Shown piece after piece: positions 2,743 through 19,560 of a stretch of DNA of 20,219 nucleotides. Under the pieces are notes generated by a model. The model had not been told where the DNA came from. It ran no database searches and saw only the letters and a program-made list of their open reading frames with translations. The translations under genes were made by a program, and so were the position numbers. Source of the DNA: a virus; the IMG/VR virus record IMGVR_UViG_3300009159_006031, positions 1 through 20,219 of that record; one strand, 5' to 3'. Positions within the stretch are counted from its first letter, which is position 1, and the number at the start of each line of letters is the position of its first letter.

Positions 2743-4989
2743 ATGAATGTTAAGAAAAGAAATAATACTACTGAAAAATTTGATATAGAAAAAATTAACA
2801 AAGTTATTAATTGGGCTATAGATGGATATTCTGGAGTTAGTTTAACAGACATAGAGATAAATGCTAAAATTAATATAACCGATGGAGTTCATACAAAAGA
2901 AATTCATAGCTTATTGATTGAAAGTGCGGCAAATTTAATTTCTATAGAAAAACCAAACTATCAATATGTTGCAGCTAGGCTTCTTAATTATCAATTAAGA
3001 AAAGACGTTTGGAAGGGCAAACATGCGCCAAGACTTTCTGAATTTATAAATAATGGTTTAAAAAATAAGATATATGACCCTGCTATCCTAGAAAAATACA
3101 CAGAAGATGAAATAAATAAACTGGGCGAAATTATAGATCACGAAAGAGACTTTATCTTTACCTATGCTGGTATAAAACAATTATGTGATAAATATTTAAT
3201 AAAAAATAGAACTACCCAACAAATTTACGAAACACCACAGTTTGCTTATATATTAATCTCTGCTTATGCATTTATAAATTATCCAAGCGAAACTAGATTG
3301 ACTTATGTAAGGAAATTTTACGATGCTATTAGTAAGCATAAAATAAATTTGCCAACTCCAATTATGGCAGGAGTAAGAACTTCTAGTAAAAATTACGCGA
3401 GTTGTTGCTTGATTGGGGTAGACGATACGAAAGAAAGCATTACTGCTAGTGCTACGGCAGTTAGTATGGCTACGGCAAATAGATGTGGAATTGGAATTGA
3501 TGTTAGCAGGATTAGAGCAATTGGCGCCCCAATTAAAAATGGGGAAGTCGTCCATACGGGGTTAATTCCATTCTTAAAAATTTATGAGAGTAGCGTGAAA
3601 GCTTGGCAACAAAATGGTTTAAGAGGAGGAAGTGCAACCTGCAATATACAATGGTGGCATTACGAAATTGAAGATGTTGTAGTATTGAAAAATAATGCTG
3701 GAACAGACGACAATCGAGTTCGTAAACTTGATTATACGGTTGGTATGAGCAAATTATTTTATGATAGGGTTTTAAAAGATGAAGATATCATGCTATTTAA
3801 TACTGCCGAAGTGCCAGAGCTTTATGAAGCTTGGGGGACAAAAGACTTTGATAAGATTTATAAAGAATGCGAGTCTAAGAAACTAAAAATTAAAAAGAAA
3901 ATTTCTGCTCGTAAATTATTCTCTCTTATAATAAAAGAAAGAGTTGAAACTGGAAGAATTTATATTCTAAATGTAGATCATGCTAACAATCATGGAGCTT
4001 GGTCTGATAAAGTAACCATGAGCAATCTTTGCACAGAAGTTATTCACCCCACAATTCCACTTAATGACTACCATGATAAAGATGCAGAAATTGGTATGTG
4101 TATTCTTTCGGCAGTTAATATGTTAGAAGTAAAAAACTGGCAAGATTTAGAAAAAGTTTGTGATTTAATTGTAAGATTCCTTGAAGAAATTATAGACATT
4201 CAAGACTACTTCAATTTCGCAGCAGAAAATTTTGCTAAAAAGCGTAGAAGCCTTGGAGTTGGAATCACCAATCTTGCAGCTTTTCTTGCTAAAAATGAAT
4301 TAAAATATAATTCAGATAAGTCTCTTTCGGTAATAGATGAGTGGATGGAGCATTTTCAATACTATCTTTTAAAGAGTAGTTGCCAATTGTCTAAAGAAAA
4401 AGGCAGATGCGAAAAATTTGAAAATACAAAATACTCTAAAGGTATCTTGCCAATAGATACATACAAAGATAAAGTAGACGAATTAGTAAAAAGAAAACTA
4501 TCACTTGATTGGGAGAAACTAAGAAAAGATATCAAAGAATTTGGATTAAGACATTCGACATTATCCTCCTGTATGCCTTGTGAGAGTAGCTCTGTAATTC
4601 AATCTTCTACAAACGGTGTCGAGCCTATTCGTAGTCTTATTACTTATAAAACAAGCAAAATGGGTAAACTTCCAGTTATGGTTCCAGGAATTGGAAAATA
4701 TGATCATAATTATGAATTAGCTTTTGATTTTAAAGATAATTTAGGTTTATTAAAAATAAACGCAGTAATTCAAAAATATATTGATATGGCTATTTCTACT
4801 AATGTGTATTATAATTACAGTCACTATGAAAATCATATATTACCAGACAGCAAAGTTATGAAAGAAATAATGTATGCTTATAGCCTTGGACTAATTAGTT
4901 TGTATTATAATAATACAGACGATGGAGATAAAGAGCAGTCTATGACACAAAAAGAAGATGACTGTGCTAGTGGAGCTTGTAAATTATGA
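2743..4989 (+). CDS. nrdA: Class Ia ribonucleoside-diphosphate reductase, large subunit
   Basis: NrdA reduces ribonucleoside diphosphates to deoxy forms with the NrdB radical subunit. The 748 residues match T4-type NrdA throughout. An ATP-cone-like N-terminus (about 1-92) precedes the barrel. Redox cysteines are Cys221 (NYASC) and Cys453 (GMCILSAVN). The active site holds Asn428, Cys430 and Glu432 (MSNLCTE). PCESSSVIQSSTNG is the usual substrate-loop region. Tyr721-Tyr722 (LYYNN) are the radical-transfer pair, and the shuttle cysteines Cys741 and Cys746 sit in the tail CASGACKL. It appears complete, with no intron or intein. The ATG has no Shine-Dalgarno. It overlaps nrdB by 4 nt (ATGA). The structured RNA lies directly upstream. 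Confidence 0.97.
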   Translation: MNVKKRNNTTEKFDIEKINKVINWAIDGYSGVSLTDIEINAKINITDGVHTKEIHSLLIESAANLISIEKPNYQYVAARLLNYQLRKDVWKGKHAPRLSEFINNGLKNKIYDPAILEKYTEDEINKLGEIIDHERDFIFTYAGIKQLCDKYLIKNRTTQQIYETPQFAYILISAYAFINYPSETRLTYVRKFYDAISKHKINLPTPIMAGVRTSSKNYASCCLIGVDDTKESITASATAVSMATANRCGIGIDVSRIRAIGAPIKNGEVVHTGLIPFLKIYESSVKAWQQNGLRGGSATCNIQWWHYEIEDVVVLKNNAGTDDNRVRKLDYTVGMSKLFYDRVLKDEDIMLFNTAEVPELYEAWGTKDFDKIYKECESKKLKIKKKISARKLFSLIIKERVETGRIYILNVDHANNHGAWSDKVTMSNLCTEVIHPTIPLNDYHDKDAEIGMCILSAVNMLEVKNWQDLEKVCDLIVRFLEEIIDIQDYFNFAAENFAKKRRSLGVGITNLAAFLAKNELKYNSDKSLSVIDEWMEHFQYYLLKSSCQLSKEKGRCEKFENTKYSKGILPIDTYKDKVDELVKRKLSLDWEKLRKDIKEFGLRHSTLSSCMPCESSSVIQSSTNGVEPIRSLITYKTSKMGKLPVMVPGIGKYDHNYELAFDFKDNLGLLKINAVIQKYIDMAISTNVYYNYSHYENHILPDSKVMKEIMYAYSLGLISLYYNNTDDGDKEQSMTQKEDDCASGACKL

Positions 4990-6050
4990 AAACAGTATTA
5001 AATTTTAAAAACGTAGACTTTACTAAACAACCATTGTTTCTTGGCGAGGATTTAAATTTGCAAAGATATGATAGGTTTAAATATCCAATATTTTTTGAGC
5101 TATTCAAAAAACAAAATGAAAACTTCTGGTGGCCACATGAAATAGCTTTAGGAAAAGATAGAAGCGATTATAAAAATTTGACTGACACCGAAAGATTTGT
5201 ATTTGATAGTAATTTAAGATTCCAAACTCTTGGAGATAGTATGTTATCTAGAAGCATACACTCATTAAAAGATTACGTTAGTAATCCAGAGCTAGAAATA
5301 TGCATGAATACTTGGGCTCAATTTGAAGGCATTCATAGTTATTCTTATTCTTATCTTTTAAATAATGTTCATCCAGATCCTACTAAATTTTTTGATAGTA
5401 TCATGGAGGATAAAGAAATAACAGGTCGCGCTCAATTAATTAGAGATAATTTTGATAAAATTCTTGGTAGCGACGAAAAGAAAGACCCTAAACAAAAGAT
5501 TTTTGATGCTATTCTTTCTATTAATGTAATGGAAGGACTCGTGTTTTATGTTTCTTTTGCTTGTTCTTTTTATTTTGGATATCGGGGAAAGATGGAAGGT
5601 AATTCTAAAATTATAAAATTCATTCAAAGAGATGAAGCTTTGCATTTTGCTACCTCTCAAAATCTATTGAAGATACTTCGTGACGAAGATAAAGAAGGCT
5701 TTACATCTATTGTAAAGAAAAATGAAGATAAGATATACGCTTTCTATGAACAGGCCGCGAAGAACGAAAGTGAATGGTCTCAGTATCTCTTTAGTAAAGG
5801 CAGTTTACTTGGATTAAATGCTGACGTTCTAGATGGCTACTCTAAGTGGCTTTGTGATAGCCGATTAAGAAGCTTAGGCTATAAGAAGATATTTAATCAA
5901 AAAGATAATCCTATAGCTGGATGGCATGACAGCTATTTGGACAGTAGCAAAGTGCAAGTTGCGCCACAAGAAACTGAGATATCAAGCTATAAAGTGGGCG
6001 CAAGGAAGACGGACATAGAAGACGAAGATTTTGGTGATTTAAAACTCTAA
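4986..6050 (+). CDS. nrdB: Class Ia ribonucleotide reductase, small (radical) subunit
   Basis: NrdB carries the diiron centre and tyrosyl radical for NrdA. In the 354 residues the metal ligands are visible as Asp84 (TLGDSM), Glu114 and His117 (FEGIHS), Glu183 (NVMEG), and Glu217 and His220 (RDEALH). The radical tyrosine is Tyr121 (IHSYSY), the place of Tyr122 in E. coli, so this is a canonical class Ia subunit, not a metal-only or Tyr-less variant. The C-terminal tail EDEDFGDLKL should dock on NrdA. Translation is coupled to nrdA by the ATGA overlap. Confidence 0.97.
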   Translation: MKTVLNFKNVDFTKQPLFLGEDLNLQRYDRFKYPIFFELFKKQNENFWWPHEIALGKDRSDYKNLTDTERFVFDSNLRFQTLGDSMLSRSIHSLKDYVSNPELEICMNTWAQFEGIHSYSYSYLLNNVHPDPTKFFDSIMEDKEITGRAQLIRDNFDKILGSDEKKDPKQKIFDAILSINVMEGLVFYVSFACSFYFGYRGKMEGNSKIIKFIQRDEALHFATSQNLLKILRDEDKEGFTSIVKKNEDKIYAFYEQAAKNESEWSQYLFSKGSLLGLNADVLDGYSKWLCDSRLRSLGYKKIFNQKDNPIAGWHDSYLDSSKVQVAPQETEISSYKVGARKTDIEDEDFGDLKL

Positions 6051-8205: not shown

Positions 8206-8802
8206 TTTATTCTTTAAGAAATCTTTGCCCTTATTATGAATATTAATGACAGTTTGAGTGCTTAATTTCATTTTCTCGCCAATATCTGCCCAAGACATCA
8301 ATCTCTTACTGTTGAAATATCTTAATTTATATATTTTTTTAATTCTTTTATCTTTGCATCTATTTAGGATAGAGAATATCATATCAGCTTTTTCTTTAAA
8401 AGCTATAGTTTCATTATTAGCTTTGATTTGATTTTTTTCTATAATATGTTTGATTGCGGTGTCTTCCATAGTTATGTGACGATTGTTTTTATTGATTGTA
8501 TTTAGACAATGATATCTCATTTGATTACCTAACCAAGTAGAAAATTTAACATTTTTATCAGGGTTAAAGTTCATTACTGATTTATATATGATATAAGTTT
8601 TCTCTGCGATTACATCTTCTGGGTCAATCCCAGACTGCACCATATTATAATAATATTTTTTAATCATTTTATGGCATATGCCGCTATGTCTTAATTCGAG
8701 TTCTTTAAGAGCATGGCTATTGTTTCGATTCAATACATCTTGAATCAAGGCGTTATCATTTGTTGTTTTTATATTCATATTAAAGTTGTGAAATTCTTTC
8801 AT
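8173..8802 (-). CDS. Phage sigma-70-family factor (late-sigma-like)
   Basis: 209 residues from the upstream ATG. Residues about 20-110 look like sigma region 2: a helix with LKELELRHSGICHKMIKKYY, then DPEDVIAEKTYIIYKSVMNF and FSTWLGNQMRYHCLNTINK, the '-10 recognition/core-binding' layout. Residues about 155-200 are a region 4 helix-turn-helix (YFNSKRLMSWADIGEKMKLS, then TQTVINIHNKGKDFL). Size and architecture resemble T4 gp55 and related factors that direct late transcription. An alternative start at 8778 (MNIKTTND) begins one base after the kinase stop; neither start has a Shine-Dalgarno. The gene overlaps the upstream kinase by 23 nt if 8802 is used. Confidence 0.8.
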   Translation of the reverse strand: MKEFHNFNMNIKTTNDNALIQDVLNRNNSHALKELELRHSGICHKMIKKYYYNMVQSGIDPEDVIAEKTYIIYKSVMNFNPDKNVKFSTWLGNQMRYHCLNTINKNNRHITMEDTAIKHIIEKNQIKANNETIAFKEKADMIFSILNRCKDKRIKKIYKLRYFNSKRLMSWADIGEKMKLSTQTVINIHNKGKDFLKNKLTSNTNSDII

Positions 8803-9364
8803 AAATTGATTTTAAATGTCTTTGAGTTAATTCATATAAAACATTTGTATCTTGGCAAGTATCCCAGCACACAGAGATATCTGCAACGGCTTTTAATTTA
8901 TTATCATTTGATTTTTCCTCTATATTAGCTGGTGGCACGAAAGATCCGTCATCCAGTTTTCTAGATAAATGTATTAAAACTCCGTTATAAGACTTAAGCC
9001 ATGCATATTCATCGTCTTTATATTCGATATATCTGACATCAGTTATAATTGGTATTGTTTTATCTTTTTTAAGCCTTTCTATTTTTTTGTCTAATTGAGA
9101 AGTCCAGTAGGTTCCTTGACTTTGAGATCTTCTGCATTTACCATAAGCAACCATTAAAGGTCTAATAGTTTCTTTTTCTTGGTCATTGCATTTAAATAGG
9201 TCTATTTTAAATTTGTCTTTAGTAAAATCATTAAGTTCATTTTTTAAATCATCAGCGAAAGCTAATCTTTCAGACTTTATATTTCTTTCTTCTAAATATT
9301 TCTTTAGGATAGAATAAAAAGTGTCTTTCCCAGACCTTGCTACTCCAGTAATGCCTATTATCAT
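8780..9364 (-). CDS. Deoxynucleoside monophosphate kinase (T4 gp1-like)
   Basis: 194 residues with a P-loop GVARSGKD at residues 7-14. AFADDLKNEL is a substrate-side helix as in T4 gp1. RPLMVAYGKCRRSQSQGTYW fits the 'R.LMQ.LG...R' motif of that family. IPIITDVRY supplies the Walker-B-like acidic strand, and NGVLIHLSRK follows. The expected reaction is dNMP plus ATP to dNDP, feeding the RNR and deaminase products into the dNTP pool. The length is slightly below T4 gp1 (241). A perfect promoter ends 6 nt before the ATG, so the mRNA should be leaderless. The gene is divergent from the dCMP deaminase, 57 nt away. Confidence 0.82.
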   Translation of the reverse strand: MIIGITGVARSGKDTFYSILKKYLEERNIKSERLAFADDLKNELNDFTKDKFKIDLFKCNDQEKETIRPLMVAYGKCRRSQSQGTYWTSQLDKKIERLKKDKTIPIITDVRYIEYKDDEYAWLKSYNGVLIHLSRKLDDGSFVPPANIEEKSNDNKLKAVADISVCWDTCQDTNVLYELTQRHLKSIYERISQL

Positions 9365-9421: not shown

Positions 9422-9853
9422 ATGAGTATGCAAAATAGAATTTCTTTTGAAGAAATGGCAATAAATATTGCTGTGGAATGTGCAAAAAGATCAGAGGACA
9501 TGCACAGAAAAGTGGGATGTTGTATTTTGAATAAAGAAGGTAAGATACTTTCCACAGGATATAATGGGTTATTGCCCAAAGTAGACAAAAACGATCTTTT
9601 TTGGAAAGATAGAGATTATAGAAGAAAGTTCATTATCCATGCAGAAATAAATGCTTTAGCAAGAATAAATAGAGACGATGAGCCTTATATTGCAGCCTGC
9701 ACTTTACTTCCATGCTCAAGCTGCGCCCTAAATATAGCCTCATATGGAATTAAAAAAATCATTTATACAGAAGACTATAGTTTTGATGAAGGCGCTAAGG
9801 AGATATTTAAGTTCTATAATATGGATCTTTTAAAACTTGACAGAAAAATATAA
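9422..9853 (+). CDS. Deoxycytidylate (dCMP) deaminase
   Basis: 143 residues of the zinc-dependent cytidine/deoxycytidylate deaminase family. Zinc and catalytic residues are His73 and Glu75 (HAEINA) and Cys98 and Cys101 (PCSSC). The N-terminal SEDMHRKVGCCILNKEGKIL and STGYNGL are typical of dCMP deaminases. The reaction dCMP to dUMP supplies thymidylate synthase (not in this window). It is shorter than the T4 enzyme (193). No Shine-Dalgarno; TATGAT ends 5 nt before the ATG. A second in-frame ATG lies at 9428. The last codons contain the -35 box of the next gene's promoter. Confidence 0.93.
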   Translation: MSMQNRISFEEMAINIAVECAKRSEDMHRKVGCCILNKEGKILSTGYNGLLPKVDKNDLFWKDRDYRRKFIIHAEINALARINRDDEPYIAACTLLPCSSCALNIASYGIKKIIYTEDYSFDEGAKEIFKFYNMDLLKLDRKI

Positions 9854-9865
9854 AAATATTAGTAT
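9837..9865 (+). promoter_or_regulatory. Promoter for the IMPDH/GMPR-family gene, leaderless layout
   Basis: Perfect TTGACA (9837-9842) within the last codons of the dCMP deaminase gene, a 17-nt spacer, TAGTAT (9860-9865), then 6 nt before the ATG at 9872. There is no Shine-Dalgarno between. Confidence 0.72.
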
Positions 9866-9871
9866 TCATAT

Positions 9872-10978
9872 ATGCAACAAAACTTCAAAGAAGCTCTAGG
9901 CTACGACGATATTTCTCTTTTGCCTAATTTTTCAGATATCTCTTCTAGAAAAGAAGTTGATACGTCCACAAAAATTTCTAGAAATAATCAGATTAAAATA
10001 CCAATTATTTTATCTCCTATGGATACCGTTTCTTCAGTCAAGTCATGCATTAAAATGAATAAAATTGGTGCGGCTGGCGTTTTGCATAGATTTATGCCAA
10101 TCGAAGAGCAAAAAGTTAAATCAAAGATGATTAAAGACGAAAGTGGTTTATCCATAAATGCAATTGGATTAAAAGACGCAGAAGAAAGAATTAATCTCAC
10201 TAAGAAATATACAGACATTTACTTTCTTGACACAGCGAATGGATTATCAAAAAACGCAGAAGACTTTCTCAGATGGTACAAGACTAGTAATTTTACTCAA
10301 GATATTATAATTGGAAATACTCTAACTAAAGAAAGCGTTTATAGACTAGCAAATTTAAAAGCAGACGGATTTAGACACCTTATCGGGCCAGGCTCGATGT
10401 GCTTAACGCAAGTAAAAACTGGCATTGGTTGCCCAAGCGTAACTGGTAATTTTTACGCTTGGCAATCAGTAAAAAATTGGGAACTTTCTCAAGTCGATTT
10501 ATTTAAGCAAGACAAACCAAATCCAGACCATAGGCCAAGTATATTAGCAGATGGTGGAATTCGTTATCCAAAAGATTTAGTTAAAGCTATAGCGAGTGGG
10601 TGTGACGCAATAATATGCGGTAAAATCTTTGCTGGATTGCAAGACACGGTCGATGACGAAGACATAGTGGAAAAGAATGGCAAAAAATATGCAAAATATA
10701 GAGGCATGGCTTCTAAAGATGTCGTAGAAGATTATCAATTATACGACGGGACGAAAAAGAATCTCTTCGTAGAAGGAGACAACACTTTAATTCCATTATC
10801 AGACAATACCATAGAAGATGTTGTTTACGATTTCGCAAATGGACTAAGAAGCGCCATGAGTTATCTAGGTTTTAGAAAAATGGAAGATATGCGTGGTGGA
10901 CTTTGGACGAATAAAATCATCGCAGTTAGATCAACAATAAATAATATGTACGAGGGATTTTCTCATGGAAAAATGTGA
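9872..10978 (+). CDS. IMP dehydrogenase/GMP reductase family enzyme, CBS-less, GMP-reductase-like
   Basis: 368 residues forming a single TIM barrel. EALGYDDISLLPNF opens the family signature, PMDTV is at 49-53, and the catalytic loop GPGSMCLTQ (172-180) holds Cys177. ADGG (226-229) and ICGKIFAG (248-255) bind phosphate. There are no CBS domains, and the length fits GMP reductase (about 345). KTGIGCPS after the catalytic loop and NGKKYAKYRGMAS (269-281) resemble GMP reductases, and the IMPDH flap Arg-Tyr pair is not evident in YQLYDGTKKN (288-297). GMP reductase converts GMP to IMP plus ammonia using NADPH; IMPDH runs IMP to XMP. I favour the former, but sequence alone leaves this open. The adenylosuccinate synthetase downstream would use the IMP. 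Confidence 0.8.
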   Translation: MQQNFKEALGYDDISLLPNFSDISSRKEVDTSTKISRNNQIKIPIILSPMDTVSSVKSCIKMNKIGAAGVLHRFMPIEEQKVKSKMIKDESGLSINAIGLKDAEERINLTKKYTDIYFLDTANGLSKNAEDFLRWYKTSNFTQDIIIGNTLTKESVYRLANLKADGFRHLIGPGSMCLTQVKTGIGCPSVTGNFYAWQSVKNWELSQVDLFKQDKPNPDHRPSILADGGIRYPKDLVKAIASGCDAIICGKIFAGLQDTVDDEDIVEKNGKKYAKYRGMASKDVVEDYQLYDGTKKNLFVEGDNTLIPLSDNTIEDVVYDFANGLRSAMSYLGFRKMEDMRGGLWTNKIIAVRSTINNMYEGFSHGKM

Positions 10979-11306
10979 TATTAAATACGTAAAATACATA
11001 TGCTTGATTCTCATAGCTTTTTGGACTATGAATAAATCTCAGGCACAAGTAGCTTATCAAAAAATGGACCAATCCACAAGATCAGTAGAACTTTATATAG
11101 TTAAGGCTCAGGTTCAATCAAATGCCGAGCAAATTAAATACTTGAACGAACAAAAGAAGTCATACTCCTTGTTTAATAAAAATGAGTCGATAGCAAGGTC
11201 TAGACAACAAGCAATTATTTCCGCCAAAGAAAATGAAACTTTTAGATTAAATCATAAGATTTTTCTTATAAATAAAGCACAGCAAACGCCGTTGACAATA
11301 AGATAA
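10965..11306 (+). CDS. Small exported protein of unknown function
   Basis: 113 residues. The N-terminus has a basic start, a hydrophobic core (YICLILIAFWTM) and SQA-Q at about 25-28, a convincing signal peptide. The mature part is about 85 residues, polar and predicted helical (KAQVQSNAEQIKYLNEQKKS), without cysteine after cleavage. It overlaps the previous gene by 14 nt and has GAGGG 8 nt before the ATG, one of the few Shine-Dalgarno sites here, as expected for an internal operon gene. It might act in the periplasm or in lysis; no family is recognised. The -35 of the next promoter lies in its last codons. Confidence 0.65.
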   Translation: MEKCDIKYVKYICLILIAFWTMNKSQAQVAYQKMDQSTRSVELYIVKAQVQSNAEQIKYLNEQKKSYSLFNKNESIARSRQQAIISAKENETFRLNHKIFLINKAQQTPLTIR

Positions 11307-11320
11307 TTTATTTGTATAAT
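11292..11320 (+). promoter_or_regulatory. Perfect sigma70 promoter, leaderless layout, for the SEC-C gene
   Basis: TTGACA (11292-11297), exactly 17 nt, TATAAT (11315-11320), then AAAACC and the ATG at 11327. This geometry decides the start: the open frame begins earlier at 11312, but that ATG-less extension would lie inside the -10 box. The promoter would drive the SEC-C protein and the overlapping adenylosuccinate synthetase. Confidence 0.88.
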
Positions 11321-11326
11321 AAAACC

Positions 11327-11551
11327 ATGGAACAGTCGTCTTTGTTTAAATCTGATGTACCGCTATATGTAAGAGGAACAGATAGCTCTCCAATACATAG
11401 ACTCGCCCCAAAGCTAGGTAGAAATTATCTCTGTCCATTCGAAGGAAAGAAATTTAAAAGATGCTGCGGAATAGACGGATCAAATTTTTGTAAAAAACTG
11501 TTAAATGAATTTATAGAAAAAAATACGCCTAAAAATGATCAAAGCAGTTGA
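11327..11551 (+). CDS. SEC-C motif mini-protein with one zinc ligand missing
   Basis: 74 residues. Residues 30-48 (LGRNYLCPFEGKKFKRCCG) are a SEC-C motif, the zinc-binding tail seen on SecA and many small proteins, whose usual form is GRN..CPCGSGKK.K.CCG. Here Cys36 and Cys46-Cys47 remain, but the second Cys of 'CPC' is Phe and one residue is lost. Zinc binding may therefore be impaired or use another ligand, such as Cys55. SEC-C motifs generally mediate protein or ribosome contacts; the role here is unknown. The start was chosen from the promoter 6 nt upstream. The 3' end overlaps the synthetase gene by 17 nt. Confidence 0.75.
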   Translation: MEQSSLFKSDVPLYVRGTDSSPIHRLAPKLGRNYLCPFEGKKFKRCCGIDGSNFCKKLLNEFIEKNTPKNDQSS

Positions 11552-12527
11552 TATTATATTTGGTTTAGCTTGGGGAGATGAAGGAAAAGGAAAGATAAGC
11601 AACGCTATATCTAAAAATTACGATATAGTTTGTCGCTGGAATGGTGGCCCCAATGCAGGTCACACAGTTTATATTAATGATAAAAAATATAAAACTCATG
11701 TCATACCGTGCGGGATTTTCCAAAACAAACTTAGCGTTATAGGGCCTAATTGTGTGATTAATGTAGACAAATTTTATGACGAAATAGATTATCTTGAAAA
11801 AGAAGGATTTGATACATCTTTAATTAAAGTTAGCCCCAAGGCTCATATTATAACAGAAAAACATATTGAATATGATCTTAAATTCTTAAAAACAAAATTT
11901 GGAACCACTGGCCAAGGTATTGCTCCAGCATATTCAGATAAGGCATTAAGAATTGGGAAACTTGCTCAAAACTATTTAGATAAAAAATATCTTTGGGACG
12001 GAAGACTCTATGGAGAAATTCTTTGCGAAGGAGCTCAAAGTTTTTGGCTAGATATAAATTATGGAGATTATCCTTATGTTACTAGTAGTGAAACTCTTCC
12101 ATATTCAGCTTGCTCTTTAGGTTTTAGTCCAAAAAAAGTAAGGAATATAATTGGCGTAGCAAAAATTTATGATACAAAAAGTGGGGTAGATCCATTATTT
12201 CCAGAATCTCTATGGCAAGACCAGGAATTGAATATGATAATTGAACTAGGTAAAGAGTTTGGCTCAACAACTGGTAGAAAGAGAATGGTAAATTGGCTTA
12301 ATTTAAATAAACTAATTGATGCAATTAGAATTTCTGGAGTAACAAAACTTATAATTAATAAATGCGATATTTTCGAGCAAATGGACACTTACAAATTATA
12401 TCAAAATAATGATTTATACAAATTTGATACGTTAAGCGCAATGCAGTCTTTTATTAAAACATATCTAAACCATTCCATTAATGATTATATAGAAGTTATC
12501 TTTTCTGGAAACAAAGAATCTATTTAA
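11535..12527 (+). CDS. purA: Adenylosuccinate synthetase (PurA/PurZ family, short form)
   Basis: 330 residues. PurA joins IMP and aspartate using GTP. Seen: WGDEGKGK (13-20) with Asp15 in the place of E. coli Asp13; NAGHT with catalytic His43; GTTGQGIAPAYSDK (123-136); EGAQ and YPYVTSSET (179-187); GSTTGRKR (243-250) with Arg248 and Arg250 of the aspartate-binding loop; and NKCD (275-278) for guanine. The length is about 100 below bacterial PurA, like archaeal enzymes and phage PurZ. PurZ, which makes the precursor of 2-aminoadenine from dGMP, typically replaces the catalytic Asp by Ser or Thr; this protein does not. The loop normally TRVG.GPFPTE reads TKSGVDPLFPES, a departure near the nucleotide site. 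It overlaps the SEC-C gene and probably shares its promoter. Confidence 0.88.
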   Translation: MIKAVDIIFGLAWGDEGKGKISNAISKNYDIVCRWNGGPNAGHTVYINDKKYKTHVIPCGIFQNKLSVIGPNCVINVDKFYDEIDYLEKEGFDTSLIKVSPKAHIITEKHIEYDLKFLKTKFGTTGQGIAPAYSDKALRIGKLAQNYLDKKYLWDGRLYGEILCEGAQSFWLDINYGDYPYVTSSETLPYSACSLGFSPKKVRNIIGVAKIYDTKSGVDPLFPESLWQDQELNMIIELGKEFGSTTGRKRMVNWLNLNKLIDAIRISGVTKLIINKCDIFEQMDTYKLYQNNDLYKFDTLSAMQSFIKTYLNHSINDYIEVIFSGNKESI

Positions 12528-14375: not shown

Positions 14376-14433
14376 AAAAATGCAGACAGAGGGATTCGTT
14401 TACTTGGACCCGAGAGGAATTGAACCTCTGTCT
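14376..14433 (-). terminator. Terminator-like hairpin competing with the tmRNA 3' end
   Basis: On the minus strand AGACAGAGG (14433-14425) can pair with CCTCTGTCT (14392-14384), a perfect 9-bp stem across a loop of about 32 nt, followed by GCA and five T (14380-14376). The 5' arm is the start of the tmRNA T-arm, so this terminator and the tRNA-like fold exclude each other. It could end tmRNA transcription before processing. Confidence 0.5.
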
Positions 14434-14791
14434 TTTAAAAATCTAAATTAAAATACTACAAGTTTAGTTCTTTTTGTTTTTAGCTTTGTATAGATAAAGA
14501 GCAAACATACTCAGCGATTTTATTTTTGATACTTAATATTAATAGAATAAAAAAACTACTAATAATAAGACATCTAATTACGCAATATCCCAATAGATGT
14601 GTCAAGGGTATCACGCTGTAACTTAAGCTACAGAAGCGGTCATCTCAACAAGAGAAACTCTTGCTGAAATATGACCTTTATATTTTGCTGTTTTGGCAGT
14701 TAATATAAATTGAAACTTTTTAAGGAGTCCTCGATTCAACCTCCACTTGCATTTCAATTTATTTCTTTAAAATCGAAACCAGTACGGGCCC
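14405..14791 (-). ncRNA. ssrA: tmRNA (transfer-messenger RNA)
   Basis: tmRNA rescues stalled ribosomes by adding a degradation tag. The 5' end GGGCCCG pairs with CGGGTCC (14412-14406) as a 7-bp acceptor stem with G3-U70, the alanine identity pair, and discriminator A; CCA is not encoded. TACTGGTTTCGAT after the 5' strand is the conserved tmRNA start. The T-arm is AGAGG-TTCAATT-CCTCT, preceded by ACTAAACTTGTAGTA, as in E. coli tmRNA. Pseudoknot 1 is GGAG/CTCC with GTTGAA/TTCAAT, then 11 nt to the resume codon GCC (14697). The tag frame has 24 codons, starting AKTAKYKGHI and ending EMTASVA, with TAA at 14625-14623. That stop lies in a CTGTA/TACAG hairpin, as usual. The 387-nt length is normal. 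Confidence 0.93.
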
Positions 14792-14811
14792 AATTAGAAT
14801 GAACTATCTTT

Positions 14812-14840
14812 ATATTACATTAGATTTTGGATTTTATCAA
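14812..14840 (-). promoter_or_regulatory. Promoter of the tmRNA
   Basis: On the minus strand, TTGATA (14840-14835), 17 nt, TAATAT (14817-14812). Transcription would begin near 14805, about 14 nt before the mature 5' end, leaving a short leader for RNase P to remove. Confidence 0.55.
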
Positions 14841-14850
14841 TATTTTTTAG

Positions 14851-14856
14851 TATAAT
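14851..14856 (+). promoter_or_regulatory. -10 box for the two small genes and following glycosyltransferases
   Basis: TATAAT ends 5 nt before the ATG at 14862. TTGGAT at 18-nt spacing is a poor -35. It overlaps the divergent tmRNA promoter region. Confidence 0.5.
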
Positions 14857-14861
14857 TCACT

Positions 14862-15020
14862 ATGGACAAAATATTAAACTTATTAAACCAAATATTAGAA
14901 AAAAAGGAATATGATGATTCTTTGGTAAGGGAGGCTTTACAAACTGGCGATAATTGGGATATTTATCATTTAAAATTATTAAAAACGCTATTAGAGGAAT
15001 ATAACAATGCCAAAAAGTAA
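14862..15020 (+). CDS. Small protein, 52 residues, unknown function
   Basis: An open frame of 52 codons beginning MDKILNLLNQILEKKEYDDS, predicted almost wholly helical, with a conserved-looking TGDNWDIYHL and a leucine-rich end (KLLKTLLEEY). It may be a small regulator or adaptor. Support: TATAAT 5 nt before the ATG and a 14-nt overlap with the next small gene, whose Shine-Dalgarno it contains. No family is recognised. Confidence 0.55.
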   Translation: MDKILNLLNQILEKKEYDDSLVREALQTGDNWDIYHLKLLKTLLEEYNNAKK

Positions 15021-15168
15021 AAAGAAAAAATATTATGGTATATATTCAATTGAAAATTTTCTTTATGGAGTATTTCCATTCTCAAAAGAGGGATATGCTT
15101 TAGCAAAAAATTACATTAATAAACTTAATCCTAAAAGAAAAAAAAACTACTTCATTAGAGAGAAATAA
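15007..15168 (+). CDS. Small basic protein, 53 residues, unknown function
   Basis: Starts MPKSKKKKYYGIYSIENFLY, then GVFPFSKEGYALAKNYINKL, and ends with a lysine-rich stretch. Net charge is strongly positive, suggesting RNA, DNA or acidic-protein binding. GAGG lies 9 nt before the ATG, inside the preceding small gene. It ends 3 nt before the glycosyltransferase start, so all are probably co-transcribed. Confidence 0.6.
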   Translation: MPKSKKKKYYGIYSIENFLYGVFPFSKEGYALAKNYINKLNPKRKKNYFIREK

Positions 15169-15171
15169 TAT

Positions 15172-16374
15172 ATGAGATTTCATGTATTAGGTTTGCCTCA
15201 TACAGTTTCAAGTAAACTATTCAACGCTTGCGCTTATACTCAAAAAGTAGTTAAGTTTTGCAAGATGATGAAAGCCAGAGGCCACTATATAATTCATTAT
15301 GGCCACGAAGATTCAGAGGTGATTTGTGACGAGCATGTTACAGTTTTGACAAATAAAGATTTTGAAATATCTTATGGTTCGCACGATTGGAAAAATAATT
15401 TTTTTAAATTTGATACAAATGATCACGCTTATCAAACTTTTTATAAAAATGCGATTCTTGAAATTCACAAAAGAAAACAAAAATTAGATTTTCTTTTACC
15501 ATTTTGGGGGAGTGGAGTTAGAACGATTTGCGATGCTCATGAAGATATGATAGTTGTCGAACCAGGAATTGGTTATGCTGGAGGTCATTGGGCTAAATTT
15601 AAAATTTTTGAATCTTATGCTATTTATCATGCATATTACGGCTTAGAAGCGATAGGAACCTGCAAACAAGGCTGGTATGATGTAGTTATACCAAACTATT
15701 TTGATTTAGACGATTTTGAATACTCAGAAGAAAAAGAAGATTATTTTTTATATCTAGGACGGGTTTACAGCGGTAAAGGAGTTCATATAGCTCATCAAGT
15801 TTGTGAGCACTTAAAGCAGAAACTTATAATCGCAGGTCAAGGCAATTTAAAAGAGATGAACATAAACTCTGAATACGTAGAACATATTGGCTATGCAGAC
15901 ATAGAAACTAGAAGAAAATTAATGTCAAAAGCTAAAGGCACTTTTGTTGCCTCGCAATATATAGAACCATTTGGTGGAGTTCAAGTAGAGAGTCTTTTAA
16001 GCGGGACTCCTACAATAACAACAGATTGGGGGTCTTTTGCAGAGAATAATATTCATGGGTTGACTGGATATAGGTGCAAAAGTTTTGAAGATTTTATATA
16101 CGCTGCGCAAAATATAAATAAAATTAAGCCAATAAATTGTAGAAAATTTGGTGAAAATTTTTCTTTAGAAAAAGTGGCTACGATGTATGAAAAATATTTT
16201 GAAGACGTTTTAAACATTTATACTGGCAAAGGATGGTACGAAGTCAAATCAAATAAATTAGATGTCTTAAAAAAGTATATTCCAAATGATAATCCATTCT
16301 TTTATAATGTAACGAAAGATGATATCTTAAAAAGTAAAGTGGACTCTTTGAAAGAATTTTTAAAACAATATTGA
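15172..16374 (+). CDS. Glycosyltransferase, GT-B fold (family 4)
   Basis: 400 residues. The N-terminal acceptor half begins [11 protein letters not shown] and contains [11 protein letters not shown] (130-140). The donor half starts [17 protein letters not shown] (191-207), followed by LIIAGQG (218-224) and the family-4 EX7E motif [10 protein letters not shown] (Glu265 to Glu273), which binds the nucleotide sugar. The final 60 residues (WYEVKSN onward) are an extension that may carry acceptor specificity. It should transfer a hexose-type sugar; donor and acceptor are unknown. It overlaps the next glycosyltransferase by one base (TGATG), so the two probably act on one glycan. Confidence 0.9.
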
Positions 16375-17625: not shown

Positions 17626-19560
17626 ATGGACAACTCTAAAAATAAAGACATAGTTGAGTTAATATCTCAAATATTAGAGTATACAGAAGATCACAGGCAG
17701 TCTGACCATCAACAAGGAGCATCTAATGAGCCTAGGCCACCCGAATGTAGATGTAAAAGTGAAAACGGATTTTGCGGAGATGATCCACCAGTAGATTGTC
17801 CAGAAGCACTTTTTCCCACAGAAGAACTTTGTTTGTGTGCAGAAGATCCATTAATGAAATGTCCAAAATGTCCTCCTACGCCAACTTGTGGATGCAAAGA
17901 TACTGGGGATGGTCCTTGTGGAGACGACACTAGCACATGCCCAGCGAATGAATTTGGAGCGTATGACATAGCGGGTTGTGGTGGTTTTTGTGATCCGCCA
18001 GTTTGTCCTAAATGTTGGCCTCCAAGCGACACACCAACATCATCATCTACACCTTGTTATTGTTTTGATTGCGGATATAGTGCTTTTAATAGTGGTGATT
18101 GTACAAAGGTAACGTGTCAATCAGGAGATTGCAGTCCACCTAAAGATGACTGTTATGATTGCCCAACGAACTCTCCAACTCCAAGCTGCGATAATGCTGG
18201 TGATCCTTGCGTTTGTGATTCAGGCACAGATTGTGGTAATTGTGCTGCTCCAGATTATAAATGCGTAAATCAACATTCAGAAACATGTTCTAACGGATGT
18301 GTTATATTTTGTGGATCGTGTGAGAAAGTTCCTACCGTAACTCCTACACCTCCAACGCCCACAGACACGAGGCTTTGTCCTTGCGATTGTGCAATGTATC
18401 CTTCGATGAGCGCATGTAATGATGCTAAACGTAAATACTGCAGTCTTAACTGTGAATGTTCACCTAATCCATGCTCTGGGGACGATTGCAAAACAAATAG
18501 TGAATGTACAGATTTAATAATTGACCCTACTCCTACTCCTTGTGAGACTCCTACGCCGACATGTCCCGAAGGATGCGAAGATGTTGGCTGTCGCGATCCT
18601 GGCGATTGTAATTCAGGCAACTGTTCGCCTAATGGGAACGACGTGGCTGCATGTTGCCGAACTGGACCTTGTGGAATTAATCGGTGTCCACTTTTCACCT
18701 GCGATATATGTGTGCACCAGCGTAAAACATGCAGAGATAAGGGAGGATTTAGCAGCAAATCCGCTTGCGACAAAAGCGTTGCTGGAAGTACACTTGATAT
18801 GTGCGAAGATTGCGGTGTAACAGGTGAGTGCGGTATCTTTGAGCCCTGTTGGTGCATAGTTCCAATACCCACAGGCTCACCTTCGTTGACTCCTTGCAAT
18901 TGCGAGAATTCAGGTTATACTTCTCCTGGACATTGCGGCCAAGCTGGAACTTGTGAGGGCGTAGACTTGGTTTGTAAAGATGGTAGTACGATACCTTGCG
19001 ATATATGTTGTACTCCTACTCCATCAAGTACGTGCGTATGCCAAAGCGGTTGCTATGAATATGGTCCAGATTGTCAATCAGCCAAAGAAGATATTGAAAA
19101 TAATAATAAATATGCACAGTGTAGTTGCTCACCCAAGGCCTGCTCTTCGGATTCCAACAAAGAATGTACCTGCCTTACATGCACATACATTACTCCTACT
19201 CCAGAAACTCAAAGTCCCAGTTGTGCGCCTCGTCCAGGCGATTGTTGTTATTATGGAATTTGTAATGGGAAAAACGTAGGATGCCAAAAATGTAGGGAGT
19301 GGGGAGAACATAGAAAAGTCCCAGGTGATGATCCTAGGTGTCCAGGTTTTGATTGTTATAAGAAAGAAATAACAGGTAGCGCCGCATTTAGAAGGGATAT
19401 AGGACACGCAGTATGGAATCCCAATACAGGCAAAATGGACTGTAATCTAGACGGCGTAGACTGCACGACCGCGCAGGCGCCTGTATGCAATACGTACCGA
19501 AAGGCCCTCTATGGACTTCAAAATGAACCTGGACCAAATGATGGAGTATCAAATTGCTAG
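17626..19560 (+). CDS. Giant cysteine-rich protein with Pro/Thr linkers, unknown family
   Basis: 644 residues with about 93 cysteines (hand count, near 14%). Residues 1-40 have none and look helical (DIVELISQILEYTEDH). The rest consists of short Cys-rich modules joined by linkers rich in Thr-Pro-Thr-Pro (TVTPTPPTPTDT, DPTPTPCETPTP). Two modules resemble each other (about 18373-18511 and 19029-19172: C.C..C..Y....C..AK...C.CSP..CS.D). The C-terminal part (GSAAFRRDIGHAVWNPNTGK onward) is less Cys-rich. There is no signal peptide, so it is made in the cytoplasm and could bind metal there or form disulfides after release. Ser/Thr linkers flanked by glycosyltransferase genes suggest, but do not show, a glycosylated virion or spike protein. 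Regional G+C is raised, which the amino-acid composition may explain. TTGATT-N17-TAGTTA ends 4 nt before the ATG, a weak promoter. Confidence 0.8.
   Translation: MDNSKNKDIVELISQILEYTEDHRQSDHQQGASNEPRPPECRCKSENGFCGDDPPVDCPEALFPTEELCLCAEDPLMKCPKCPPTPTCGCKDTGDGPCGDDTSTCPANEFGAYDIAGCGGFCDPPVCPKCWPPSDTPTSSSTPCYCFDCGYSAFNSGDCTKVTCQSGDCSPPKDDCYDCPTNSPTPSCDNAGDPCVCDSGTDCGNCAAPDYKCVNQHSETCSNGCVIFCGSCEKVPTVTPTPPTPTDTRLCPCDCAMYPSMSACNDAKRKYCSLNCECSPNPCSGDDCKTNSECTDLIIDPTPTPCETPTPTCPEGCEDVGCRDPGDCNSGNCSPNGNDVAACCRTGPCGINRCPLFTCDICVHQRKTCRDKGGFSSKSACDKSVAGSTLDMCEDCGVTGECGIFEPCWCIVPIPTGSPSLTPCNCENSGYTSPGHCGQAGTCEGVDLVCKDGSTIPCDICCTPTPSSTCVCQSGCYEYGPDCQSAKEDIENNNKYAQCSCSPKACSSDSNKECTCLTCTYITPTPETQSPSCAPRPGDCCYYGICNGKNVGCQKCREWGEHRKVPGDDPRCPGFDCYKKEITGSAAFRRDIGHAVWNPNTGKMDCNLDGVDCTTAQAPVCNTYRKALYGLQNEPGPNDGVSNC

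Follow-up and report, generated by a model that had tools for sequence, protein, structure and literature searches.

GMP reductase (GMPR; GuaC, EC 1.7.1.7) and IMP dehydrogenase (IMPDH; GuaB, EC 1.1.1.205) share the catalytic residues Cys319, Thr321 and Glu431 (Tritrichomonas foetus IMPDH numbering), but GMPR has a shorter flap and no Arg418-Tyr419 dyad, the pair of residues by which IMPDH hydrolyses its covalent XMP intermediate (PMC2525682). GMPR-family enzymes are encoded by Caulobacter phage Cr30, Bacillus phage G, Xanthomonas phage XacN1 and deep-ecotype pelagimyophages, and the report on the last group does not mention adenylosuccinate (PMC7029224). Adenylosuccinate synthetase (PurA, EC 6.3.4.4) and its superfamily relatives PurZ, which uses dGMP as substrate, and PurZ0 also occur in phages. 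The two activities are already known singly; the literature searched yielded no report of a GMPR–PurA pair in phages. Here we describe such a pair in the viral record IMGVR_UViG_3300009159_006031, a 20,219-base fragment of 31.9% GC that is called the window. It encodes a CBS-less enzyme of the IMPDH/GMPR family, designated GuaX, and a short PurA. As judged from sequence, what is new is a predicted phage nucleotide-metabolism module in which a divergent GMPR-like enzyme has PurA as a near-constant partner.

GuaX and PurA co-occur in an AT-rich phage clade

A first scan with GuaX identified 43 related viral contigs. PurA is present in 40 of them; the three exceptions are fragmentary, with lengths of 64, 11.6, and 11.2 kb. 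A second scan added five GuaX contigs, all with PurA, so that 45 of 48 GuaX-selected contigs carry both genes. In the reciprocal selection, GuaX is found in 70 of 79 contigs chosen by PurA, 38 of which also belong to the first GuaX set. Seven of the nine PurA contigs without GuaX are at most 13.4 kb long; the other two, of 33–35 kb, have 37.5% GC and the most divergent PurA (68% identity). The GC content is 26–32% in the first 43 loci and 25–34% in later members. GuaX and PurA are near-constant partners in this AT-rich clade (25–34% GC), whose members are uncultivated large phages of one family, recovered from environmental metagenomes.

The nearest outgroup, the 84-kb contig L253 (GuaX 49% identity), lacks PurA, as do 11 other phage genomes with a GuaX homolog, including Cr30, G, XacN1, and phiYS40. 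The original prediction had asked whether guaC-like and purA genes go together in AT-rich phages. They do so within the clade, but not in these 11 phages. Both genes are under purifying selection, with ratios of nonsynonymous to synonymous substitution rates (dN/dS) between close relatives of 0.01–0.09 for GuaX and 0.03–0.24 for PurA.

GuaX lacks the catalytic dyad of IMP dehydrogenases

Residues Cys177 and Thr179 (C-x-T) and Glu301 (EG motif) of GuaX are invariant in 37 aligned sequences. Like GuaC of the E. coli and Firmicutes types, GuaX is a CBS-less triosephosphate isomerase (TIM) barrel with the Cys/Thr/Glu set and no dyad, and it contains the DxANG motif of E. coli GuaC. It differs from these enzymes in forming a separate branch (100% support), in sharing ~25–35% identity with the known members that do not belong to the phage clade, and in having two insertions, one behind the helix of the catalytic loop (residues ~199–222) and one at the C terminus.

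The Arg-Tyr flap dyad, present in every IMPDH compared, occurs in none of the 74 distinct full-length GuaX sequences of the clade. No Arg precedes the flap aromatic residue in any of them; this residue is Tyr in most, His or Ser in some, and Trp in the outgroup L253. In IMPDH, mutation of Arg418 to Ala or Gln lowers hydrolysis ~1000-fold (PMC2525682). On the alignment, the flap of GuaX spans 23 residues; that of E. coli GuaC has ~21, that of E. coli GuaB 28, and those of the short bacterial forms 14–15. In addition, GuaX contains a GMAS motif in place of the GMGS of IMPDHs, and Ala280 is invariant where IMPDHs have Gly. The corresponding residues of Trypanosoma brucei GMPR, Met401 and Ala402, touch the GMP base (PMC7160140), and this match was counted for GMP reductase.

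Five Ignavibacteria/Bacteroidota genomes each encode an IMPDH of 490–496 residues with a DRYFQ flap and a separate dyad-less homolog of 358–364 residues; a sixth contains the short dyad-less form and an IMPDH fragment. These genomes provide an internal control that backs the dyad rule. The short homologs (L288–L293) are also CBS-less, have a CGSAS flap and probably represent an unnamed type of GMP reductase; the two members tested fall below all NCBIfam cut-offs.

Overall similarity, phylogeny, and predicted fold of GuaX

GuaX scores 176.6 of the 481.5 bits needed for the IMPDH model TIGR01302 and 117–142 of the 344–675 bits needed for the GMPR models (best 142 of 344). It lies under every NCBIfam equivalog cut-off and thus receives no name from the database. 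The same GMPR models also fail the annotated GMP reductase of Cr30 and the dyad-less Ignavibacteria/Bacteroidota homologs, indicating that, among phage sequences, these cut-offs are no measure of family membership.

In the phylogenetic tree, GuaX lies outside a clade of nine IMPDHs (100/99) and forms a branch of its own with L253 (100/100). The deeper order gives GuaX no settled sister group. An AlphaFold2 (AF2) model of GuaX built from 37 sequences has a mean predicted local distance difference test (pLDDT) score of 83.9; an earlier model from 16 close relatives was poor (43.6).

Several results speak against a GMP reductase assignment. The TIGR01302 score exceeds those of the GMPR models. 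The best PDB match is an IMPDH (E = 4e-46), followed by the CBS-type T. brucei GMPR (~3e-37) and classical GMPRs (~4e-30 to 1e-29). A single clade of GuaX and IMPDHs is not rejected by the approximately unbiased test (p-AU 0.19), and comparison of the AF2 fold ends in a tie between IMPDHs and T. brucei GMPR. Structure is therefore not an arbiter here; the absence of classical GMPR1/GMPR2 from the 50 fold matches listed excludes nothing.

These results would fit GuaX being an IMPDH with an unusual flap, in which case GuaX and PurA would catalyse the two ways out of IMP, and the phage would simply raise the supply of both GMP and AMP. Such an enzyme would account for the highest overall sequence and profile similarity, for a flap longer than that of type 2 GMPR, and for the Tyr retained in most members, and the tree leaves room for an origin beside IMPDH. 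However, it would have to work without the Arg, in some members also without the Tyr, with Ala280 in place of Gly, and without a CBS domain. We consider it unlikely. Since the dyad is missing in 74 of 74 sequences and GuaX lies outside the IMPDH clade, GuaX is predicted with good confidence to be a GMP reductase. The "GMP-reductase-like" label of the original prediction is borne out by the catalytic residues and the missing dyad, but not by overall similarity, which is nearer to IMPDH.

The phage PurA is not a Z-genome enzyme

Of 14 active-site positions of E. coli PurA that were checked, 13 are identical in the phage protein, including Asp13, Lys16, His41, Arg143, Gln224, Arg303, and the guanine-binding NKxD motif; we take their roles to be those of the E. 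coli residues. E. coli PurA is longer by ~100 residues than the phage-borne enzyme, which in this respect resembles archaeal PurA. Asp13 is retained in 81 of 81 distinct PurA-family sequences. At this position, all 147 phage PurZ/PurZ0 sequences (100%) have Ser (PMC12884076). The NCBIfam PurA model gives 262.5 bits and the PurZ model 100.2 (PurZ cut-off 300).

A Z-genome (2-aminoadenine) pathway is suggested by the label of the PHROG match, 2-aminooxy adenylosuccinate synthetase, and by the short length, which is common to PurZ. With Asp13 in every sequence and the PurA model far ahead, such a pathway is extremely improbable. A PurZ-type enzyme with Ser or Gly for Asp13 was looked for and rejected. 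The conserved Asp13 identifies the phage protein as a predicted true PurA, in line with the synthetase originally proposed.

Two variants were observed among the relatives. One 66-kb contig (L193/G053) carries two PurA paralogs, at 14679–15554 (−) and 25846–26691 (+), both with Asp13; one has TTNRKR in place of TTGRKR. In G010, the record of L011, the PurA frame at 109016–110005 contains one internal TAA, which is either an assembly error or a sign of a broken copy.

A predicted route from G and C to A and T

The remaining steps were surveyed in 18 large contigs, comprising 17 of the clade and L253. ThyX is encoded in 17 of the 18, and no ThyA or dUTPase match above the cut-off was found in them. 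The window, a fragment, holds no ThyX itself. Because ThyX is present in 17 of 18 relatives, the thymidylate step is likely phage-encoded, and the host thymidylate synthase invoked originally would not be needed. A PurB-type lyase was found in none of the 18 contigs. This gap counts against the route proposed below; PurB must come from the host, as had been anticipated.

We propose, with moderate confidence, that the phage encodes a diversion of guanine nucleotides to adenine nucleotides. GuaX would convert GMP and NADPH to IMP and NH3, and PurA would condense IMP with aspartate at the expense of GTP to form adenylosuccinate, from which host PurB would release AMP. After phosphorylation to ADP, the phage ribonucleotide reductase (RNR) would supply dADP/dATP. 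In a parallel arm, dCMP deaminase would convert dCMP to dUMP and the ThyX of the phage family would produce dTMP, with the deoxynucleoside monophosphate (dNMP) kinase and host kinases catalysing the last phosphorylation steps. The net effect would be to move G and C salvaged from host RNA and DNA into the A and T of the AT-rich phage genome. Gene presence, active-site residues, co-occurrence, and purifying selection are observed; from these we infer the reaction direction, the substrates, the flux in vivo, and the purpose.

Alternatively, GuaX and PurA may act on deoxynucleotides, converting dGMP from degraded host DNA through dIMP to dAMP. We regard this variant as improbable. If true, it would be a recycling line that bypasses RNR and rewrites host G/C into phage A/T, parallel to the path from dCMP to dTMP, and it would be tuned to genome composition.

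Relation to genome composition

For the diversion through GMP and AMP, a tie between the gene pair and AT-rich genome composition is plausible. A precedent for G/C-to-A/T logic is provided by cyanophage MazG, which prefers dGTP and dCTP and was interpreted as a recycler of the host's G and C nucleotides, the host being GC-rich and the phage AT-rich (PMC6850273). MazG differs in that it hydrolyses dNTPs and does not convert one base to another.

Stretches fetched from other phages with GMPR-family genes have GC contents of 33% (phiYS40), 38% (Cr30), 31.5% (G), 42.5% (RAS14), and 49% (XacN1). Cr30, phiYS40, XacN1, and RAS14 infect hosts of much higher GC content. AT-rich phages with GMPR-family genes in GC-rich hosts fit the composition idea, although the fit is suggestive only.

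Other observations count against the tie. AT-rich phages without the pair exist, and the GuaX homologs of L253 and the 11 other phages do without PurA. AT-rich pelagimyophages that share the RNR, such as HTVC008M, are not among the GuaX matches, so a phage genome can be AT-rich without the pair.

The pair may instead be a general aid to purine salvage, supplying ATP/dATP or lowering GTP/guanosine tetraphosphate (ppGpp) pools, unrelated to base composition. The many large phages with GMPR-family genes but no PurA, the occurrence of such genes at moderate GC as in XacN1, and the pelagimyophages just mentioned are all compatible with this explanation. It would leave aside that the two genes are found together only in the clade at 25–34% GC, and that the single-gene relatives checked lie near 37% GC, though these are few and related. 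We regard a salvage function as a substantial possibility, if the less probable one.

Gene layout of the window and its relatives

The dCMP deaminase, GuaX, and PurA genes are all on the + strand and closely packed at 9422–12527 (Table 1). Their assignment in the original prediction agrees with the open reading frames (ORFs) and with Pfam and PHROG matches, and the dNMP kinase and RNR genes (2743–6050) lie nearby as described. The deaminase contains the zinc motifs HAE and PCSSC (HxE and PCxxC), read in the sequence. Between GuaX and PurA are two small ORFs with overlapping ends, to which the original prediction does not refer.

Table 1. Coordinates of nucleotide-metabolism genes and adjacent ORFs in the window
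Feature	Position	Strand	Evidence
dCMP deaminase, 143 aa	9422..9853	+	PF00383 4.7e-18; phrog_174 5e-34; homolog in 43/43 related loci
GuaX, CBS-less IMPDH/GMP reductase-family enzyme	9872..10978	+	PF00478 1.8e-62
Small ORF, signal-peptide-like N terminus, overlaps GuaX end	10965..11306	+	In 13/43 loci
Small SEC-C-like ORF, CPFxGKKFKRCCG, overlaps purA start	11312..11551	+	Motif read from sequence; 40/43 loci
PurA, short adenylosuccinate synthetase, 330 aa	11535..12527	+	PF00709 1.6e-80
dNMP kinase	8780..9364	−	phrog_139 5.5e-22; PF21448 1.6e-6
NrdA, class Ia RNR large subunit	2743..4989	+	NF006578 874.8 bits (cut-off 813)
NrdB, RNR small subunit	4986..6050	+	PF00268 2.5e-56

A recurrent set of genes, composed of nrdA, nrdB, a sigma factor, dNMP kinase, dCMP deaminase, GuaX, the SEC-C-like ORF, and PurA, is found in the 43 related contigs, with varying order and strand. 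This recurrence indicates that the arrangement in the window is not due to chance. The SEC-C-like ORF (LCPFEGKKFKRCCG) gave no match in a Pfam search. It still adjoins GuaX in L011 and L017, where PurA has moved, and is therefore a candidate for a third component of the module.

The window also encodes a one-piece transfer-messenger RNA (tmRNA) at 14404–14791 (−; Rfam RF00023, 107.6 bits). Its tag of 24 residues, AKTAKYKGHISARVSLVEMTASVA, ends in -SVA rather than the usual -ALAA. The tmRNA is kept in the clade (L003, L005, L007, L009, L013, L021, L040, L044, L087, L099, L154, L239, and L274). Downstream of glycosyltransferase-like and SET-like ORFs, a repetitive ORF of 644 residues at 17626–19560 (+) is Cys-rich and Pro/Thr-rich. 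Shine-Dalgarno-like sites precede 17% of genes against 4% expected, a weak signal on the host. In G065 (L271–L279), a 172-kb relative, the candidate structural proteins have remote named relatives or none, and the DnaE-like (PolIIIα) DNA polymerase has distant ones only. G065 seems to be an undescribed lineage.

Implications

A phage genome often has a higher AT content than that of its host, and there is debate over whether phages play an active part in reshaping nucleotide pools. A conserved pair of GMPR-like enzyme and PurA, accompanied by dCMP deaminase and RNR and, among relatives, by ThyX, offers a concrete test of such reshaping, as the module predicts that label would flow from guanine to adenine during infection. 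GuaX itself would represent a further GMPR-like subfamily, with a predicted catalytic flap unlike those of the textbook types.

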